In this document: in pieces, positions 15,528 to 24,000 of the stretch
Layout of the letters: the number at the start of each line of letters is the position of its first letter
How positions within the stretch are numbered: the first letter of the stretch is position 1
Origin: Halalkalicoccus sp. CG83
GTDB taxonomy: Archaea; Halobacteriota; Halobacteria; Halobacteriales; Halalkalicoccaceae
Reading direction: 5' to 3'
NCBI RefSeq assembly: GCF_037081715.1
Contig: NZ_JAZDDH010000001.1
Coordinates: 2,480,001-2,544,000, forward strand
Length of the DNA stretch: 64,000 nt
Notes under the pieces: model-generated
Database searches by the model: none
Seen by the model: the letters and a program-made list of their open reading frames with translations, nothing else
What the model was told of the DNA's origin: nothing
Position numbers and translations under genes: made by a program

Positions 15528-16017
15528 GAGAGACCGTTCCTTGGGGTCCTCGTAAACGACCACGGTTCGGGCGACCCGCGTCGTTTGTAGTTCCCCCAGC
15601 GTGGGAGAGAACTCCCTGTTCCGCGATGGAACGGGATGAGGTTGGGCGGTTTACATCCATGCTATCAGAATTGGTAGCGCGGCATCCCGACTCAGACAGG
15701 TTCACCTTCCGAACACTCGGTGGGGTTTTGCGAGTCCGGCAATTCTCGTCGCCAGCATCAGCACCAGACAGGTCTGACGAGAGATGTTCGATTACTGCTA
15801 TTCAAGCATCGCAAATATGGTAATAATATGATATTATTATAGCCGAGTCGCGGCAGTACGGGTATGAGAACGATTTACGAAACCGTCTTTGTATCCGGAA
15901 AATCGTAGGACAGCGAGGAGTCAACAGGCAACACGTATGTATCCCCTATACGCATCCTGACAATATTTACGAGTGGACCGATGCCGTCATGTGGTTTTGA
16001 TGCAACGAGAAAGCAAG
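15528..16017. other. Intergenic stretch next to tRNA-Arg
   Basis: Only weak open frames are present. An AT-rich palindrome (TAATAATAT-G-ATATTATTA, 15821-15839) lies about 180 bases beyond the 3' end of the tRNA gene. Nothing else is identifiable. Confidence 0.35.
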
Positions 16018-16092
16018 TGGGCGCTGCAGGATTTGAACCCGCGGCAACTTGGTCCGAAGCCAAGCACTCTGTCCAGACTGAGCTAAGCGCCC
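16018..16092 (-). tRNA. tRNA-Arg (TCG anticodon)
   Basis: A complete 75-base cloverleaf is read leftward: acceptor GGGCGCT paired with AGCGCCC, discriminator A, anticodon arm CTTGG-CTTCGGA-CCAAG giving anticodon TCG (arginine, CGN codons), and T-loop TTCAAAT. No intron is visible. The 5' half (42 bp including the acceptor start) is repeated exactly at 21965-22006, so this gene is the attachment site of the integrated element to its right; its 5' half and upstream promoter now come from the element end. Confidence 0.93.
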
Positions 16093-16093
16093 T
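16052..16093. repeat. Left attachment repeat (42 bp) of integrated element
   Basis: These 42 bases, covering the anticodon loop to the 5' end of tRNA-Arg, recur without a mismatch at 21965-22006 in the same orientation. The pair brackets about 5.9 kb of AT-rich DNA carrying integrase genes, as expected for attL and attR of a tRNA-targeting element. Confidence 0.85.
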
Positions 16094-16117
16094 ACGCGAA
16101 CCGCTTCGGGCTAGCCC

Positions 16118-16136
16118 CGTTTAACTCCCGCGATTT
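16118..16136 (-). promoter_or_regulatory. Promoter of tRNA-Arg supplied by the element
   Basis: About 28 bases upstream of the tRNA 5' end (rightward on this strand) lies TTAACTCCCGCGATTT. Its near copy, TTAAGTCCCGCGATTC, lies at the same distance (27 bases) from the orphan 5' half at 22006. Read leftward, this is a GC-rich BRE-like block followed by a TTAA-centred TATA-like element. Confidence 0.5.
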
Positions 16137-16404
16137 ACTCCTTCGCGTGATCCCATCTCGACATGATCAATGCTACCAGTGCCAGTACAATAAAAGAGGC
16201 AGATGAGAAGCTCTTCGCTATTCGAAGCTCAACTATACTTTGGATCGATAGTAGAGGTCCTATTCGAGCAATTGCTTACAATCACTGTTATATAAAATTC
16301 ACAAGGCCTGGGTCCCACGTTTCGAGAACGTGGGGTTACCTGTTTTCGTGAGCTGTCATTTTCGACTGACATGAGAATCCCAATTCCTACGTTTGAAGCA
16401 CTGA
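16137..16404. other. Element left flank, no gene supported
   Basis: AT-rich DNA between the tRNA promoter and the first integrase remnant. Two short open frames run in opposite directions, but neither resembles a protein I know. Confidence 0.35.
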
Positions 16405-16698
16405 GTCTATGCAAGAACGTGTGCGTACGTGCCACGAGTGTGGCATCAGGAACTTTCATACGGATCTAGCTCGCTCAAAATCGTCCTTGAGAAGGTTTGT
16501 GATATCGCTGGGATCGATACTACAGATCGGGGTCTCACTTGGTACGCGATCAGACACAGCACTGGAACAACTATGTCAGAGGAAGAAGGACTAAAGGCGG
16601 CACAGATGCAACTTCGCCACCGCGATCCCAAGACGACGATGAAGTACGACAACGTCTCAACTGAACGTCGACGAGATGCCCTCGATCGAATGGGCTAA
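16405..16698 (+). pseudogene. Tyrosine recombinase, C-terminal remnant 1
   Basis: About 97 codons encode only the end of a phage-type integrase. They align with the C-terminus of the intact integrase at 20709-21821: SSSLKIVLEKVCDIAGID matches its SLKFVLHKLCEMADIP, WYAIRHSTGTTM matches WYSIRHSVGTYM, and LRHRDPKTTMKYDNV carries the catalytic His/Arg and Tyr. The N-terminal domain and the first catalytic Arg are missing, and a stop codon precedes the remnant. It points rightward, opposite to the intact gene, so it comes from a different, older integration. Confidence 0.75.
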
Positions 16699-16926
16699 GG
16701 GATACCCGTTCTTTGCCGCCTTCGCGGCCGCATATTCTTCGATTGGCAGTACCTACTCTACAGAGTGAAATAATTCACACGGCATAAACATCGAAATACT
16801 CGGTCACAGGCCAATGAGAACGAAGTCGCCCCATTCAGTAAGATCCGGATTGCCACAGTCATATGAAACGCTTGAAATATTTATTTCCATAACTTGATAC
16901 TCTACCTTTACAAGCCGAATACGTGA

Positions 16927-17001
16927 TTCTTTCTGATCATCAAGGCAAATGACACTGTTTCCGCCAAGAGGCGACGAGATGCCTTAGACAATATAGGCTA
17001 G
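16927..17001 (+). pseudogene. Tyrosine recombinase, C-terminal remnant 2
   Basis: Just 25 codons ending in KRRRDALDNIG-stop match the last residues of remnant 1 (ERRRDALDRMG) and of the intact integrase (EDRRKALNRMG). The segment before it (IIKANDTVS) corresponds to TMKYDNVS but has lost the catalytic tyrosine. A stop codon lies directly upstream. It is a relic of a further integrase in the same orientation as remnant 1. Confidence 0.55.
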
Positions 17002-17029
17002 CACGAGACTATCTTCACGTTACTAACGG

Positions 17030-17995
17030 TTAGACATATGATTTCTCCATACTTTCTCTGATTTCTCCCTCGGTAATAGAAACTTTTCCGGTTCTATATT
17101 TATTACCCATCAAATCCTCAGTATTAGACAGTTTTTCTGTATCTCTTACTTTTCCTTGCTGTATTATATCAATGTGTGTCTCATCTTGCTCATCTTCATA
17201 CACTAATGAAAGAGCATAAACACAGTTGTTGATATCCATTCTTGACAACGCGGGTACCCAGAATGGATTGTAAACCGGGGCAAGAAGAGTGGCATTAAGC
17301 CAATTATCCTCGTCCTTCTTTTCCACGAAATTTATGCTAAGCAATTCATCATCAAAGTAGCGGCTAGCAAGACGTTCTGCCCCTCCTAACGCCTCAAAAT
17401 AATTTATGATTTTGAAGGCCAAGGTTGATATTGTGGTTTCGTCCTCAAGACGTTCAAGAACACACATCTGTGGTTTGACTATGTAATTCCCTTGTTCACC
17501 TGGTTCAAGAATCTCACTAGTACTTTCATACGCAGACCTATGTTCCGCATTTTCGATCGTAGTTTCTACAGGTATCAGACTACGTTCTCTCCCCTCATTG
17601 CGACGATACTCTTCTATTTTTGTTCCATCCATTAACTTGAGATCGATCCTAAGACGAAAATTTTTCCCTATCCCTTTTCCTTTATTTTTGATTAGAATGT
17701 TAATTTCGTTCCCCTCGACGTGTGGGATTCGAAGTTGAAGCTGTGGTTGATATGTGAGTTTCAATAGTTCTCGTTGGGATTCTGAAATACTAGTCTGTTT
17801 TCTGGTAACGGCGTAGAGAAGATAAGTGAAGGCAACTAACAAACCTGAAAAGATATTAGTGGTTAAGTCATCAGTAAATATTGTTTGTTGGCTAACGTAC
17901 TGGAGAAACACTGTAACTCCAATTACTAAGCCTATTAGTACAAATAAGAGAGTAGCTGAGCTAACAATAGATCGCATTTTCGCTCCCCAACTCAT
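17030..17995 (-). CDS. Element cargo: two-helix membrane protein, unknown
   Basis: This 321-residue protein has two transmembrane helices at its N-terminus (about residues 10-33 and 46-64) and a large soluble C-terminal region predicted to face the cytoplasm, with an Ig-like feel (LQLRIPHVEGNEINILIKNKGKG, then a Glu/Lys-rich beta stretch). No catalytic motif is evident. Its codons are AT-rich, unlike the chromosome. It is third of three leftward cargo genes, 113 bases after the DUF6414-like gene. CTATATTAATCG (about 18018-18030) upstream is a likely TATA element of its own. I do not recognise the family. Confidence 0.6.
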   Translation of the reverse strand: MSWGAKMRSIVSSATLLFVLIGLVIGVTVFLQYVSQQTIFTDDLTTNIFSGLLVAFTYLLYAVTRKQTSISESQRELLKLTYQPQLQLRIPHVEGNEINILIKNKGKGIGKNFRLRIDLKLMDGTKIEEYRRNEGRERSLIPVETTIENAEHRSAYESTSEILEPGEQGNYIVKPQMCVLERLEDETTISTLAFKIINYFEALGGAERLASRYFDDELLSINFVEKKDEDNWLNATLLAPVYNPFWVPALSRMDINNCVYALSLVYEDEQDETHIDIIQQGKVRDTEKLSNTEDLMGNKYRTGKVSITEGEIRESMEKSYV

Positions 17996-18108
17996 CTATT
18001 TATGTGTTAGAATAGCGATTAATATAGAAATTACTATTCGAAAAACTCAGACTGTCTGAAAGAGAAGTTGATCACACCAATTTTCGTCTCGTTTCTTCCA
18101 ACTATCTC

Positions 18109-19071
18109 TTACCAGTAGACGGCGAGAGGATCAATTACAGTTGCCGGTCCGTCTACTGTTACATGCTCATCTAACATTTCGACCTTGTTTTCTTCCGCTA
18201 TATTACGGATAACTTTCATAAACCGACTAATACCTATATCCTCATTAGCAAAAGACTCTAATACCCTAGTTGTATCGATAGGATCCCATTCTTCAGATTC
18301 AGAGATCGTATCTTCGACTCTACCAAATATTGTATACTTTTTTGGCTTAGAAAATGCTCGTTTGACTGGAACTCTTAGCTGATTCCGATCTAAAACAGCT
18401 CCGTAAGAATGGCCTCTAAACTTACCTTGACTATCTACCCTGATAGGTACCCTTTCTCCGATGAGTCCTTTCGAGATATTCACAAAAGTATCCGTTAAAT
18501 CAGATCGGGCTTCCTGTACCTCGGTAGGGTCTTTCACTACGTTGTCTCCCTCTTGCTGCCGCTTAATTTCATCTAGTTCTGAACTCAATCCATGATCTTC
18601 AAGTACACTTCTGAAATTCTCCATTTGTTTCATTATAGCTATGGTTGAGTGCTGAAGAGTAAGATTAGAGTCTTGAGCAATTTCGAATCGAAAGAGCGAA
18701 AGCGGTGACACAATCCCTTCTATTGCCACCACATCTCCGTAATTTACCTCGTCTCCTTGTTCAGGTAATTTGATTTCGTAGCTACCTTTTATTTGCCTAA
18801 TTAATTCTTGGAATCTATATGGTGCGGTTATATCTACATTACGTTCTGTTTCTTCTAAATCCACATTTCTAACTCCTCCTGAACCTCCAAAACTGCCAAA
18901 AGGAGATGGAACAAGAGCTGCGAACCGACTAGTAGTTTCTTTTTCGTCTGAACTAGCTGTTACATGCTCTGTTTCTAGTCCAACACCAAGAGAAGAAAGA
19001 TGGCTGTTTATACTTTCATCATTCAGATAAATGAATTCTCGAAGCTCTTGTTCCGGAAATTCGTTTGCCAT
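18109..19071 (-). CDS. Element cargo: DUF6414-like protein
   Basis: This 320-residue protein starts with LREFIYLNDESINSHLSSLG, close to the signature I associate with DUF6414 (EFIYLD-x-SVNSLLSSL). A Gly/Ser/Phe-rich stretch (SPFGSFGGSGG) and an Asp/Glu-rich middle follow, with a possible beta-barrel-like part near residues 95-135 (GDVVAIEGIVSPLSLFRFE). Family members are found in mobile and defence-like contexts, but no function is established. Codon use is AT-rich. A TATA element at 19091-19102 is placed for a leaderless transcript, so the gene may be expressed independently of its neighbours. Confidence 0.6.
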   Translation of the reverse strand: MANEFPEQELREFIYLNDESINSHLSSLGVGLETEHVTASSDEKETTSRFAALVPSPFGSFGGSGGVRNVDLEETERNVDITAPYRFQELIRQIKGSYEIKLPEQGDEVNYGDVVAIEGIVSPLSLFRFEIAQDSNLTLQHSTIAIMKQMENFRSVLEDHGLSSELDEIKRQQEGDNVVKDPTEVQEARSDLTDTFVNISKGLIGERVPIRVDSQGKFRGHSYGAVLDRNQLRVPVKRAFSKPKKYTIFGRVEDTISESEEWDPIDTTRVLESFANEDIGISRFMKVIRNIAEENKVEMLDEHVTVDGPATVIDPLAVYW

Positions 19072-19090
19072 ATAAGTGAATAGTTCTTCT

Positions 19091-19102
19091 CATATAAAAT
19101 AT
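19091..19102 (-). promoter_or_regulatory. TATA element for the DUF6414-like gene
   Basis: ATATTTTATATG, read leftward, lies 20-31 bases before the ATG at 19071, the spacing for a leaderless archaeal transcript. It lies in the 56-base gap after the preceding cargo gene. Confidence 0.5.
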
Positions 19103-19127
19103 TCATCGTCTCTATCATAGTATTGCG

Positions 19128-20348
19128 CTACAGATCTTCTGAAGTTAGTTTAAAGGTTTCCAACTTCCAGCCTAAATTCTCGTAGATGGATCTCGCATCG
19201 ACAGTATTGGTATATGTATTTGGGATATAACAAACATTTGAATTTTTCATGCGAAGCATTACGCCAGCAATTTGATCCAAGTCATCCTCCTGAAACACTC
19301 CCTCATCACCTGGTCGAATTGCTGGGAAACTTCGGTATTTGCCAGTACTCGAATCCTCACTTTTCTCAATAAAAGCTATCTCACGCTTGTCATTAGGATT
19401 AGGAATAGCACTAATCTCAATTAGGTAGTCTTCCCATTCATTTGAAATAGACTGAACCCTTGGTGACAGATCTACGTTCTCTCGAATTGCGAATCCATAC
19501 GGTTCTCCAATCAAAATATCACGGACTTCATCCGCGGAACTAATAGAAGTGTGCTCACAATTTATGAACACTACCAATGGCCTACCATTTCGAGGTTGAT
19601 CGGCCTTCGTTCGTAACCGTTCGGCGATCTTGCCTTCGTCATCAGGTTTTATTCCTCGCCTACGATCCCAAGTTCCTATCCAGGCAAACGATCCCTGTTC
19701 TTTTTCTTCAAATTCTACCCGAAGTGCGTTGGTTTCTATTGTTTCGGGGTCATCGGGATTCAAGTCTTGCTCAATTAGATTAATGAAATCGTCAACTGCC
19801 TCTTCATTTTCGCTCCACCTTTCATGGGTTGTCGCTTGAATATCGAACTCCGACTTCAATGATAATCTCCCAATGTAAGGCAGGTTATCCATCACGTCTT
19901 CTAGCTTTCTTCGGATGCGGTATTCTTCATCTGCCTCTTGTAACAATGTTGCATCAACGTCGAAATCCTCACATGCAAAGTCAGGCATCCCTTGCTTGTC
20001 AGGGAGATCAAGCACTTGTGGATCCTCACACAACCACTGTATTAGCGCCTGATAGCACCACAACTCTGTCACGAATGCGTTGAACTTACCGCGCGAGTAA
20101 AGGTTATTATCATAGGTCTTCACGAGTTTTTCTGCCGGCGATTGCTCTACCAGTTTTGACCACATTTCTAAAGCGGGTTCACGATCTCGGTCAATACAAA
20201 TTTTCAAAGGGTGATCGTCGTCACATCTATTTATCAGATCATCAGGAAGAAGAGCGCTCAGAGTCGGATATTTGCATTCGAATTCCATTTGATCCATAGG
20301 TTTGAATGATTCGGAGTGCCGCTCAATGATAAAATAGGATACTATCAC
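19128..20348 (-). CDS. Element cargo: possible nuclease-like protein, unknown
   Basis: This protein of up to 406 residues is of unknown family. An N-terminal helical part contains KFNAFVTELWCYQALIQWL (Glu95), followed by KQGMPDFACEDFDVDAT (Asp123; Asp130/Asp132). This E...PD...D-x-D spacing resembles, but does not complete, a PD-(D/E)XK active site because no clear E/QxK is visible. The second half has a Rossmann-like RPLVVFINCEH strand and ends with VFQEDDLDQIAGVMLR. The 20348 start is GTG; the ATG at 20297 is an alternative and better placed relative to GGTTTTATCC near 20370. It is first of the three leftward AT-rich cargo genes. Confidence 0.55.
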   Translation of the reverse strand: MIVSYFIIERHSESFKPMDQMEFECKYPTLSALLPDDLINRCDDDHPLKICIDRDREPALEMWSKLVEQSPAEKLVKTYDNNLYSRGKFNAFVTELWCYQALIQWLCEDPQVLDLPDKQGMPDFACEDFDVDATLLQEADEEYRIRRKLEDVMDNLPYIGRLSLKSEFDIQATTHERWSENEEAVDDFINLIEQDLNPDDPETIETNALRVEFEEKEQGSFAWIGTWDRRRGIKPDDEGKIAERLRTKADQPRNGRPLVVFINCEHTSISSADEVRDILIGEPYGFAIRENVDLSPRVQSISNEWEDYLIEISAIPNPNDKREIAFIEKSEDSSTGKYRSFPAIRPGDEGVFQEDDLDQIAGVMLRMKNSNVCYIPNTYTNTVDARSIYENLGWKLETFKLTSEDL

Positions 20349-20498
20349 TATAGATTCTTCTATGGATAAAACCGTGCAATGAGGTGTTTGTACCCGGATA
20401 TAGGCAAATCACGACGAATGCTAGAGGTTCGTAGATGACAGCGAAATGATTTCATTTTCTTGATAGTATCTGAGTGGTGGTTGTCAGAGTTGGTAAGG

Positions 20499-20640
20499 TT
20501 AGTCGACTGTCGCGATCAATGCTTGGACATCGAGGCCAGCGGCTCCATGTGATTTTTCGTAGTCCCATTCGTGCTCTTCGTTGAACTCGCTCCGACCATA
20601 CCAAAGACGAAAAGTACGAGAGGAACGATTTGAACCCGCG
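20499..20640 (-). pseudogene. Decayed coding fragment fused to a tRNA-Arg fragment
   Basis: Read leftward, one frame without a start codon gives SNRSSRTFRLWYGRSEF and continues with an acidic, protein-like tail (EEHEWDYEKSHGAAG...) ending in TAA at 20499. Its upstream part reads straight into the 28-bp tRNA-Arg copy at 20627-20654, so a gene end became joined to an attachment site. I do not recognise the protein. The next gene is the intact integrase. Confidence 0.35.
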
Positions 20641-20654
20641 GCAACTTGGTCCGA
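20627..20654. repeat. Third tRNA-Arg fragment (28 bp, 3' half)
   Basis: These 28 bases are identical to 16030-16057, i.e. the T-arm, variable region and 3' side of the anticodon arm of tRNA-Arg. It stops at the same anticodon-loop bases where the 42-bp repeats begin (shared GTCCGA). It therefore looks like half of an attachment site left by another recombination at the same tRNA. Confidence 0.7.
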
Positions 20655-20708
20655 CCAGCACCGACCTACATGTCGTTACATGTGATTATACTGGATCTGC
20701 GTAGGCAA

Positions 20709-21821
20709 TCATCCCATTCTATTGAGGGCCTTACGTCGATCTTCGACAGGGGTCTGGTCGTATTTCATCGTCGTATTCACGCTCTTATGACGGAGTTGGG
20801 ACTTGGCAGCGGCGAGGCCTTCTTCGCGCGTCATGTACGTCCCGACAGAGTGCCGGATAGAATACCACGTCATCTGACGGTTTTCAATTGGAATATCGGC
20901 CATCTCACAGAGCTTATGAAGCACGAATTTGAGTGAGGTGCTCTGATATGGATTACCATGGCGCGTTAACCAGAGCGTGTCAGTGTCGTCGTATTTTTCG
21001 ATTAGAGCTCGTTCTTGAAGCCAATTTTCGAGGAACTGAGCGGTTTGCTCACGAATACTGACGTGCCAGTGCTCGGTATTCTTTGCCGAATCTTCGGCTG
21101 GAATACGAAGGAGTGCGTTTTCTGGGTCGATCCAACTGACAGACGCCCGTTCGACCTCGATCGGTCTGAGCCCTGTATCGAGCGCTGTCCAAATGAGACT
21201 CGTGATCTTGTGGCTATTTGCTTCGTTGAACTCCTCCGGTCCTATCTCGTGCATCGGTTTGCCGAGCCGTCTCGCCAGATGTTGTTTCCATCTCGTTCGT
21301 TCATCAGGTGTAACCGCGTTATAGTGAGGGACGCTCCCGTATTCGAGTGAGACGTCTCGAAGACGCTGTCGCTCTTTCCGCGTTAGGTAGTCACGCGGAG
21401 TCGTTTGCGTCTCAGTCCGCGCGTATGTGATCGGTGGATTCCAGGCTCCCTTTTCACCGAATTGCCACTCGCGCCATCGGAACAACATCTTCACTGATTT
21501 GACGAGGTTCGTTTTGTGGGTCGCAGAATGGTCGGTAAATGCGAGTTGTCTGGTGTATTCGTTCGCGTGTTCGTGGGTGACGTGAGTAGTGTACTGGTCG
21601 TCTTCGTCCCAGACCCAGTTGTAGAATGCGTCCGTGTGGTAGCATCGTGCTCTTACAGTCGTCGGTTGGTAGCCGATTGCTCGGTCGGGATCGCGCCCGA
21701 GTTTGAGCATCCATTTGACGAGTGATGTGCGATGAGTTTTGTAATCAGTTAGCTGTCTGTTGTTCAGCTTTTCTCGCGTTCGTTGCGGAACGATCGGAAA
21801 GTCCTTAGCTTCGGTTGACAT
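20709..21821 (-). CDS. Tyrosine recombinase/integrase (intact)
   Basis: This 370-residue phage-type integrase is very probably the enzyme that inserted the element into tRNA-Arg. The N-terminal half is a SAM-like core-binding domain (residues about 20-130). The catalytic domain shows Arg in DTGLRPIEV (box I), WYSIRHSVGTYM (box II Arg, with Tyr where His is usual), LRHKSVNTT (His/Arg) and the nucleophile Tyr in MKYDQ. It ends about 140 bases from the right attachment repeat. It is conserved with the two integrase remnants at the left end. Codon use is closer to the chromosome than that of the cargo genes. Confidence 0.9.
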   Translation of the reverse strand: MSTEAKDFPIVPQRTREKLNNRQLTDYKTHRTSLVKWMLKLGRDPDRAIGYQPTTVRARCYHTDAFYNWVWDEDDQYTTHVTHEHANEYTRQLAFTDHSATHKTNLVKSVKMLFRWREWQFGEKGAWNPPITYARTETQTTPRDYLTRKERQRLRDVSLEYGSVPHYNAVTPDERTRWKQHLARRLGKPMHEIGPEEFNEANSHKITSLIWTALDTGLRPIEVERASVSWIDPENALLRIPAEDSAKNTEHWHVSIREQTAQFLENWLQERALIEKYDDTDTLWLTRHGNPYQSTSLKFVLHKLCEMADIPIENRQMTWYSIRHSVGTYMTREEGLAAAKSQLRHKSVNTTMKYDQTPVEDRRKALNRMG

Positions 21822-21964
21822 TGTCTGGAATCCTTCGCTAGCGTGCGGTTTTCGGTTCGATTGACGTTCGTCGAGCTATGGGAAGAATCGGCGAAGGAGT
21901 TGAGTTCAACAGGAATTCTGGTGAAAAGTGCTGTACGGAACCGACTTCTTCAAACGTGTCAATT

Positions 21965-22006
21965 GTCCGAAGCCAAGCACTCTGTCCAGACTGAGCTAAG
22001 CGCCCT
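21965..22006. repeat. Right attachment repeat (42 bp), orphan tRNA-Arg 5' half
   Basis: Exact copy of 16052-16093. Here it is followed on the right by chromosome-like GC-rich DNA with a preserved tRNA promoter (22033-22048) but lacks the tRNA 3' half on the left. It is thus the original chromosomal 5' half, left behind by integration (attR). Confidence 0.85.
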
Positions 22007-22032
22007 GGATTCGGGGTTCGGGGGTCTCGTTC

Positions 22033-22048
22033 TTAAGTCCCGCGATTC
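22033..22048 (-). promoter_or_regulatory. Orphan tRNA-Arg promoter
   Basis: TTAAGTCCCGCGATTC matches the block upstream of the intact tRNA-Arg (16121-16136) at 14 of 16 positions and at the same spacing from the gene. It could still drive transcription of the truncated 5' half into the element. Confidence 0.5.
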
Positions 22049-22063
22049 GTCGACACGAGGGGA

Positions 22064-22384
22064 TCAGAAATGCGCGAGGCCGGCGGCGACCATCAGGACC
22101 AGCCCGGTTCCCATTCCGGCGTAGTTGATCGCACCGTTGGGCGTCACCAGGTCGCTGTAGAGGATCACGGGGATCGCGAGGACGATCAGCGCGGCCATCG
22201 CCGTCTGGGCTCGTGAGACGCCGGCGGCGTCGGCATCGGCGTTCTCGTCGAACTCCGAGCGGCTCGCTCGCAGACCGTCCACTAGCTCACAGCAGTCGTC
22301 GTCCGACCGAACGGTTCGGTCCACGATCTCCCTCCAGGCACGTTCGTCCGGTCCGGCCCGATCCATGGGACCGTCGTCGCTCAT
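22064..22384 (-). CDS. Small membrane protein, unknown
   Basis: This 106-residue protein has an acidic soluble N-terminus with a Cys pair (SDDDCCELVDGLRAS) and two C-terminal transmembrane helices (about residues 61-80 and 88-105). It is divergent from the next gene and is the first chromosomal gene after the element. I do not recognise the family; such two-helix proteins are common in haloarchaea. Confidence 0.55.
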   Translation of the reverse strand: MSDDGPMDRAGPDERAWREIVDRTVRSDDDCCELVDGLRASRSEFDENADADAAGVSRAQTAMAALIVLAIPVILYSDLVTPNGAINYAGMGTGLVLMVAAGLAHF

Positions 22385-22470
22385 CGTCGGATAGTCCCGG
22401 CCCGGCTTCTTAAACGGTTCGTCAGACGCACGTCAGCCGACCGATCCACCCTTGATAGGGCCGGCATGGG

Positions 22471-22479
22471 ATATAAAGG
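22471..22479 (+). promoter_or_regulatory. TATA element
   Basis: ATATAAAGG stands about 25-30 bases before the ATG at 22502. It decides the start of the following gene: an in-frame ATG at 22466 precedes the TATA element and cannot be in the transcript. Confidence 0.55.
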
Positions 22480-22501
22480 TGGGAGCGAAGAACACGGAGA
22501 C

Positions 22502-22861
22502 ATGGTACTGAACGGTGCAGTGATGGGATCGGTCGTCGCGTTCCTGATCGCGCTCCTGGTCGGCGGACTGGCGATCTACGCCAGCGCCAGCCTAGTCATG
22601 GACATCCAGAACTACAGCCACGCGGTGATCACGGCCCTTCTCGGGGCGATCGCCTGGGGACTCACCGCGTGGATCCCGCTGTTCGGCCCGGTGATCGCGC
22701 TGATCGTCTGGATCGGCGTCATCAACTGGCGCTACCCCGGCGGCTGGGTCGACGCGACCATCATCGGCGTCGTCGCCTGGCTCGCCGCGCTGGTGCTGTT
22801 GTTCGTCCTGAACTCGGTGCTGGGCCTCGGCGTCGGCGCGTTCGGCGTTCCGGGTGCCTAG
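22502..22861 (+). CDS. Integral membrane protein with four helices, unknown
   Basis: This 119-residue, almost wholly hydrophobic protein has helices at about residues 8-28, 38-52, 54-72 and 82-105, with Gly/Ala-rich packing and an NWRYPGGWVD loop. The start was chosen from the TATA element 25-30 bases upstream. It converges on the NADH dehydrogenase-like gene, and their stop codons overlap at 22859-22860. The function is unknown. Confidence 0.6.
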   Translation: MVLNGAVMGSVVAFLIALLVGGLAIYASASLVMDIQNYSHAVITALLGAIAWGLTAWIPLFGPVIALIVWIGVINWRYPGGWVDATIIGVVAWLAALVLLFVLNSVLGLGVGAFGVPGA

Positions 22862-24000
22862 TCCCGATCGACCAGCCCCGCGATCCCCAGTTCCTCGTCG
22901 ACGAGATCGACCGCGTTTCGTACCGCGCCCACCGAGGAGAGATAGCCGGCGCCGACGCTCGCCTTCAGCGCGAGGGCGGCCCGGCCCCGTAACACGGACG
23001 GTCCGACCTGCGCGACCGCGCCGTCACCGACGCTGACGAGCCAGCCCGGCGAGTCGAAGCCGAATCGTTCGGGTCGGGGACCGAACCCGCCCGCGTCCCA
23101 GCTTTCGACGATCCCGACGAGGCTGTCGGCGACGACGCGGGCCTCGCGGATCGCGGCCTGCGCGCTCGCGGGGACCGCCTCCCCGTCGCGGTCGACCGCC
23201 TTTGCCGCGTCCCCGACGACGAACGTCCTCGCGTCGAGTCGCAGGTCGCTTCTGACCGGGGGTCTCCGTTCGCAGAGAGCGCCCGGTCCGCGGATCCCGC
23301 CGGTCCAGACGAACGCGTCGTAGGGGATCGGCCCGTCGTCGGTCTCGATCACGTCGGCCGTCGTCCGCCGAACGGCCGCCCTCGTTCGAACGTCGACGCC
23401 CCGCTCGGTGAGCTCCTGTGTCACCGCCGTCCTGAAGTTCTCGGGGAAGTTCGGCGCGACGCTGTCGAGCCGCTCGAGCAGAGTGACCTCGAGCGGAGCG
23501 TCCTCCTCGCGGGCGAGTGCGGCGAGCTCGCCGGCGACCTGCACCCCCGAGAGGCCGGCGCCGCCGACGACCACCCGCCCTCCCGAGTCGAGCAGCGGGA
23601 GAACGCGCTTGCGGATCTCGGTGGCGTGCTCGAGACGTTTGAGCGGGATCGAGTGTTCCTCGACGCCGGGCAGTCCGTAGTAGGCGGTCTCCGCGCCCAG
23701 ACAGATCGCGGCGTAGTCGTACCTGATCTCGCCGTCCGCACACCGGACGACCCGCTCGTCGGCATCGATCGCCTCGATTCGGGTCTCGCGAACGGTCGCG
23801 CGTTCGAACAGCGAGTCGAGCGGCACGGCGATCACGTCCGCGAGCCCGGGCCGCCGGATCACCCGATGGAGCTCGTGCTGGATGAGGTGGTAGGGTCGCT
23901 CGTCGACGACGACGAGCTCGACGTCCTCCGGCAGGCGGCGTTCGAGCGAGCGCGCCAGCGTTACCCCCGCGTAGCCCGCCCCACAGACGACGATGCGCAT
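22858..24000 (-). CDS. FAD-dependent NADH:quinone oxidoreductase-like protein (NDH-2 family)
   Basis: This 380-residue two-dinucleotide-fold flavoprotein begins with the FAD loop MRIVVCGAGYAGVTLAR, has a second GxGxxG in VVVGGAGLSGVQVAGEL (NADH site, about residue 145), FVWTGGIRG and the late FAD motif FVVGDAAKA. The pattern fits type II NADH dehydrogenases and related quinone reductases, which feed electrons into the quinone pool without pumping ions. The longer open frame upstream overlaps non-family sequence; the ATG at 24000 starts directly at the nucleotide-binding strand. No C-terminal membrane helix is obvious. Confidence 0.82.
   Translation of the reverse strand: MRIVVCGAGYAGVTLARSLERRLPEDVELVVVDERPYHLIQHELHRVIRRPGLADVIAVPLDSLFERATVRETRIEAIDADERVVRCADGEIRYDYAAICLGAETAYYGLPGVEEHSIPLKRLEHATEIRKRVLPLLDSGGRVVVGGAGLSGVQVAGELAALAREEDAPLEVTLLERLDSVAPNFPENFRTAVTQELTERGVDVRTRAAVRRTTADVIETDDGPIPYDAFVWTGGIRGPGALCERRPPVRSDLRLDARTFVVGDAAKAVDRDGEAVPASAQAAIREARVVADSLVGIVESWDAGGFGPRPERFGFDSPGWLVSVGDGAVAQVGPSVLRGRAALALKASVGAGYLSSVGAVRNAVDLVDEELGIAGLVDRD

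Follow-up and report, generated by a model that had tools for sequence, protein, structure and literature searches.

An insert on the 5′ side of a haloarchaeal tRNA-Arg(TCG) gene with one intact integrase and two integrase tails

Introduction

A displaced fragment of a tRNA gene marks the end of a genomic island in Islander (PMC4383910), and in the portion of that paper available to us, 5′ fragments account for 159 of 3919 islands and 125 entries are filed under tandems of two or more. Among archaea, integration into the 5′ half of a tRNA gene is called unique to the pTN3-like integrases in the accessible part of a recent review (PMC8371274). The pTN3 integrase of Thermococcus is presented as suicidal in the accessible text of its description (Cossu 2017, PMC5495485), its gene being disrupted on integration. 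For the HSTV2-like haloarchaeal recombinases, the same part of the review (Badel 2021, PMC8371274) gives no 5′-side use of tRNA genes.

Here we describe an insert that uses the 5′ side of a tRNA gene in Halalkalicoccus sp. CG83. We analyzed a stretch of 64,000 nucleotides (the window; NZ_JAZDDH010000001.1, positions 2,480,001 to 2,544,000) from its genome (G000; 3.64 Mb in six contigs). The intact integrase of the insert, hereafter the live integrase, resembles the HSTV2-like recombinases as delineated in the available review text: It is 44.0% identical to the HSTV-2 integrase over 99% of the query in a pairwise comparison, where the clustering threshold for the family is 30% identity across 60% of the protein length (PMC8371274), and PF00589 is the sole Pfam domain detected in it, in keeping with the single-domain character of that family. 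It differs from the family as described there in the side of the tRNA that it uses.

In this last respect the locus is closer to pTN3, as far as the accessible text of PMC5495485 goes. The att sequence shared by pTN3 is a tRNA 5′ half of 41 bp, and the repeat here comprises tRNA positions 1–41 plus one base; judged by this anatomy, attB here would likewise be the tRNA 5′ half. In pTN3 the tRNA is rebuilt and parted from its original promoter, as would be the case here. However, pTN3 splits its own integrase gene, whereas the reading frame of the live integrase is intact and begins 143 bp downstream of the displaced tRNA piece, and suicidal disruption is absent. A literature search, with most subscription papers lying outside its coverage, returned no published description of a 5′-side haloarchaeal integrase group.

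Results

The insert lies on the 5′ side of tRNA-Arg(TCG)

The insert (16094–21964; 5.9 kb) carries one intact integrase and two integrase tails, relic 1 and relic 2 (Table 1). It has the makeup of a tRNA-integrated genomic island, with an intact tRNA, a displaced fragment in the same orientation, and an integrase in between. The AT-rich cargo (17002–20348) has a G+C content of 40%, against 69% at 22007–24000, and a PADLOC search at an E-value of 0.01 assigned none of its defence families to the integrase or the three cargo proteins.

Table 1. Features of the insert and its tRNA pieces, in window coordinates
Feature	Position	Strand	Evidence
Intact tRNA-Arg(TCG), bounding the insert on one side	16017..16092	-	ARAGORN; Rfam RF00005, 64.7 bits
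Upstream region now adjoining the intact tRNA, putatively element-borne	16094..16141	-	Comparison with G004
Relic 1: C-terminal part of a tyrosine integrase and stop; upstream part gone	16435..16698	+	Live-integrase search, Pfam, PHROG, local alignment
Relic 2: same-family integrase tail (final 17 codons, stop)	16948..17001	+	Position-specific score with shuffled control
Cargo gene without family match	17030..17995	-	Weak relatives in 6 other genomes (392 searched)
Cargo gene, DUF6414 / phrog_9699	18109..19071	-	E 6.7e-31; PHROG
Cargo gene without family match	19128..20348	-	Relatives in 8 other genomes (392 searched)
Internal tRNA piece, positions 36–63; putative remnant of the inner element's displaced att copy	20627..20654	-	28 bp exact repeat
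Live tyrosine integrase, 370 aa	20709..21821	-	PF00589; likeness to HSTV-2 integrase
Displaced tRNA 5′ half (positions 1–41 plus 1 bp), bounding the insert on the other side	21965..22006	-	42 bp exact repeat
Native tRNA upstream region, continuous with native neighbours	22007..22047	-	Comparison with relatives

We compared the window with six relatives (L044–L049) that have a single tRNA-Arg(TCG) 5′ half; L049 was left out of the alignment of tRNA upstream regions. The genes of the window's right flank stood on the 5′ side of the tRNA in five of the six, without a large gap in L047, L048, and L049 and with an extra ∼120 bases in L044 and ∼0.6 kb in L045. The sixth (L046, from G002) was alike in the tRNA and its near upstream region only and had other neighbours. 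Because the right flank adjoins the tRNA 5′ side in relatives, the insertion lies on that side, and the native half, displaced together with its upstream region, is found at 21965–22047. The upstream part of this stretch (22007–22047) runs on into the native neighbour genes. The region that now precedes the intact tRNA (16094–16141) is unlike it and matches the tRNA upstream region of a relative (G004) with 95% identity over 44 bp. This 5′-side position, with a 5′ half and upstream region that appear to be element-borne, had escaped the original prediction. A search for a decayed tRNA 3′ half directly after the displaced 5′ half gave a score that 126 of 300 shuffles reached.

We made several further observations at the site and in one relative. 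The ∼120 extra bases in L044 (G004, about 1635–1768) separate the tRNA upstream region from the gene that follows and are possibly the scar of an earlier insertion. Between the intact tRNA and relic 1, we noted by eye a hairpin with two 8-base arms (16314–16334), possibly the end of another mobile element. Two 18-bp segments, one upstream of relic 1 (16381–16398) and one beside the displaced half upstream of the live integrase (21948–21965), are 83% alike and have the same orientation relative to each integrase; this is possibly chance, as other inverted pairs were equally strong. On the minus strand at 15535–15743 there is a match to Rfam sot2652, a family of sense-overlapping transcripts, just below the gathering threshold of 61 (58.4 bits, E 8e-11).

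Relatives of the live integrase

Phage records matching the live integrase numbered 49, with names in Halorubrum, Haloarcula, Halophage, or Hardygib1. A pattern search of viral contigs returned no relative of the live integrase, and one partial match of 36 residues to relic 1. An integrase on a Natrinema thermotolerans plasmid (L217; CP031304.1, 12001–13086) is 58% identical to the live one.

The tRNA-Arg(TCG) 5′ half was matched in 326 of 382 genomes, and a by-eye count of the table gave four genomes with two such halves: the present one (G000), G126, G135, and G243. The two copies in G243 are each a whole tRNA at a contig end. The other two genomes belong to other families and share the outer architecture of the insert. 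In G126 the intact tRNA is at C3:183824–183898, the integrase shares 58% identity with the live one, and displaced tRNA positions 1–34 lie with their upstream region about 10 kb away (a 91-bp repeat, 98%). In G135, displaced tRNA positions 1–61, preceded by a similar upstream region, lie 5.8 kb from the intact tRNA, and the match of the codirectional integrase stops at residue 259.

We then considered 101 loci, drawn from the best-scoring of the matches listed plus a few broken copies and so not a random sample, which held 99 integrases of at least 43% identity. Upstream of 81 of these integrases there was an intact codirectional tRNA, and 11 stood on the 5′ side of an intact tRNA-Ser(TGA), facing away from it; the rest had a 3′ part only (three), a 5′ part only (two, namely the window and G126), or none (two). 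Displaced copies were counted on the integrase side only, at 95% identity or more over at least 18 bp, with the window and G126 left out; the threshold dropped L134 (94%). The codirectional class had 15 three-prime copies, two whole, no five-prime, and none found at 64 loci, where the other end may fall outside the stretch fetched. The facing-away class had five five-prime copies, three whole, no three-prime, and none found at three. Among these sampled relatives, the orientation of the integrase is linked to which end of the tRNA is displaced. At five loci, a second integrase (31%–39% identical to the query) stands tail to tail with the first, 16–17 bp apart in L074, L075, and L080 and about 260–270 bp apart in L086 and L190.

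The insert as a probable composite of integrated elements

The insert is probably a composite of at least two elements that integrated on the 5′ side of tRNA-Arg(TCG). Because the internal tRNA piece (positions 36–63) separates the live integrase from the rest of the insert, it suggests two elements, one of which sits in the displaced att copy of the other. The live integrase is flanked on either side by tRNA positions 36–41 (TCGGAC).

In the mechanism that we propose, the integrase would act on the anticodon loop of the tRNA gene, recombining this region with an attP that brings its own tRNA 5′ half and upstream sequence. At one end, the intact tRNA would then combine the chromosomal 3′ half with the 5′ half and upstream region of the element, and the original 5′ half would be pushed to the opposite end of the insert. 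We infer the following order of events: A first element, its integrase facing away from the intact tRNA, would have left an att copy of tRNA positions 1–63, with relic 1 as its remnant; a second element, bearing the live integrase codirectional with the tRNA, would have entered this displaced copy at the anticodon loop, leaving positions 1–41 upstream of the live integrase and 36–63 downstream. The att copy in G135 (1–61) is about as long as this account needs (1–63). Against this account, the 5′ half that the element should have left immediately ahead of the internal piece is missing: in alignments to such a half, the 57 bases at that place, counting the stop codon, do no better than shuffles, 63% of which reach the score, and an anchored test gave 0.05. 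By losing its N-terminal part, the first integrase may have left the cargo immobile at this site.

A single element could instead have arrived once, the live integrase bringing all 5.9 kb, with the relics and the internal piece as old baggage acquired elsewhere. We consider this improbable yet deserving of attention, for G126 has the same outer architecture with a single integrase, and a tblastx comparison with the window found no integrase relic there; since G126 needs one element only, the internal tRNA piece could have another cause. Against a single arrival, however, the internal piece is an exact 28-bp match to the host tRNA, and its start falls within the same six bases as the end of the displaced half. 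Moreover, relic 1 adjoins the intact tRNA and points away from it, as do the integrases of the tRNA-Ser(TGA) class.

The original prediction had read the site as one tRNA invaded by three integrases of one family. Repeated use of the tRNA is supported for two integrases by the two extra tRNA pieces; three arrivals go beyond them, as relic 2 is a third integrase tail but need not represent a third arrival.

Relic 1 belongs to the family of the live integrase

Both relics lie on the plus strand, opposite the live integrase on the minus strand, just as the original prediction had it, and its assignment of them to the family of the live gene, and not to some unrelated protein, was upheld as well. 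Relic 1 retains about 87–89 C-terminal codons of an integrase. It was found with the live integrase as query (58% identity, E 2.8e-23), by PHROG integrase profiles (best E 2.5e-11), and by Pfam PF00589 at E 2.8e-5, with a score of 24.4 bits that lies below the 27.1 cut-off. The predicted truncation upstream also held up: in 16093–16450, tblastn for an integrase N-terminal remnant gave weak matches only (E 0.02 and above). DNA homologues of 16142–17030 were found neither in nine other genomes of the family nor in the plasmid collection.

The best local alignment of relic 1 was with the G126 integrase (56 identical in 89 columns, reaching back to 16435), followed by local score by L130 (55 in 79) and L138 (52 in 80). 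At the motif KYDN[VI]S, seen in two of 97 family tails (KYDNVS in L130 and KYDNIS in L131, both of the tRNA-Ser class), relic 1 reads KYDNVS.

It is very unlikely that the relics arose by local rearrangement, as duplicates of the live gene that later decayed. This reading is compatible with an approximately unbiased (AU) test on the C-terminal part, in which a pairing of the live gene and relic 1 was not rejected (p 0.30). However, the live gene ranks only 77th of 123 integrases by similarity to relic 1, reads KYDQTP where relic 1 has KYDNVS, and is itself nearest to L059 or L060 in full-length trees; the DNA of its tail is identical to that of relic 1 at 36 of 54 positions and to that of relic 2 at 25 of 54. 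A recent local copy, the possibility that the original prediction had named as its refutation, is disfavored for relic 1.

Hardly more credible is that relic 1 still functions, as a small protein that consists of the catalytic C-terminal part and might, for instance, modulate the live integrase: an open frame of 89 codons does persist there from a GTG at 16429, but the terminal branch of relic 1 is very long (0.9–1.3, against medians of 0.15–0.19), and among seven loci with broken copies (overlapping matches dropped), the C-terminal part alone was listed in two (L097 and L192), at other lengths.

As a source of the relics, we also tried the B-type partner integrases (30%–44% identity) that face integrase A at several loci and rejected them, as the tails mismatch. 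A second broken integrase of the family lies elsewhere in the same genome (G000:C2:109469–109803; L003, L004, L097), about 366 bp from a tRNA-Arg(CCG), and consists of the C-terminal part only.

Phylogeny

With full-length sequences, a quick IQ-TREE run joined the 11 facing-away integrases, G126, the live gene, relic 1, and L059 in one group of 15 rows (SH-aLRT 98), in which L059 is a 3′-type exception. A FastTree run, also on full-length sequences, kept this group without relic 1, which was placed beside long branches. The tree of the C-terminal part had 56 rows, one of 98 having been dropped beforehand and every second codirectional row omitted. There, with a bootstrap that had not settled, relic 1 joined two members of the tRNA-Ser(TGA) class (95/85); the 15-row group was not recovered (AU p 0.26), and the live gene and G126 were unpaired. 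A grouping of relic 1 with both the live gene and G126 was likewise not rejected by the AU test (p 0.09). The C-terminal phylogeny, which the original prediction had put forward as a check, in this way places relic 1 with the tRNA-Ser class and retains the live gene as a possible sister under the AU test. The placement of relic 1 in these trees is weak.

Relic 2 is a short tail of the same family

Under a position-specific score, relic 2 was third-best of 95,182 stop-free 17-residue positions in the six frames of the window (live gene 62.5, relic 1 40.0, relic 2 8.1, next −8.4), where the profile and the family set used for tail comparisons included the live gene's own tail. The best stop-terminated score in 30 block-shuffled windows was −2.5. 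By tblastn against 127 integrases, its best E-value was just 0.012.

The tails of relics 1 and 2 match at 34 of 54 bases; in the 60 bases before and after, matches number 12 and 14, about as expected by chance. Given its length of 17 codons and the VS and RRRDALD that it has in common with relic 1 (RRRDAL is seen in none of 97 family tails), relic 2 may be of the same lineage as relic 1 or an old local duplication.

Discussion

Islands with 5′ fragments and tandem islands are known; what is under-described is the archaeal variant with an uncut integrase. Compared with the tandems of Islander, as presented in the available part of PMC4383910, the second element here seems to sit inside a displaced copy, and only one integrase is intact.

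A broader reading, for which we would call the prospects about even, is that a clade of non-suicidal haloarchaeal integrases has switched from 3′-side to 5′-side use of tRNA genes, namely tRNA-Arg(TCG) and tRNA-Ser(TGA). Elements of this clade would carry a tRNA upstream region, so that each arrival replaces the promoter of the host tRNA, and the displaced native promoter may drive the integrase; more than one such arrival would have occurred in the window, leaving integrase tails behind. Because integrase orientation is tied to the displaced tRNA end in the sampled family, a switch between the 3′ and 5′ sides can be traced on its tree. A second archaeal group, with uncut integrase genes, appears to use the 5′ side of tRNA genes, and should the upstream regions prove to be promoters, the control of single tRNA genes would be altered by mobile elements.
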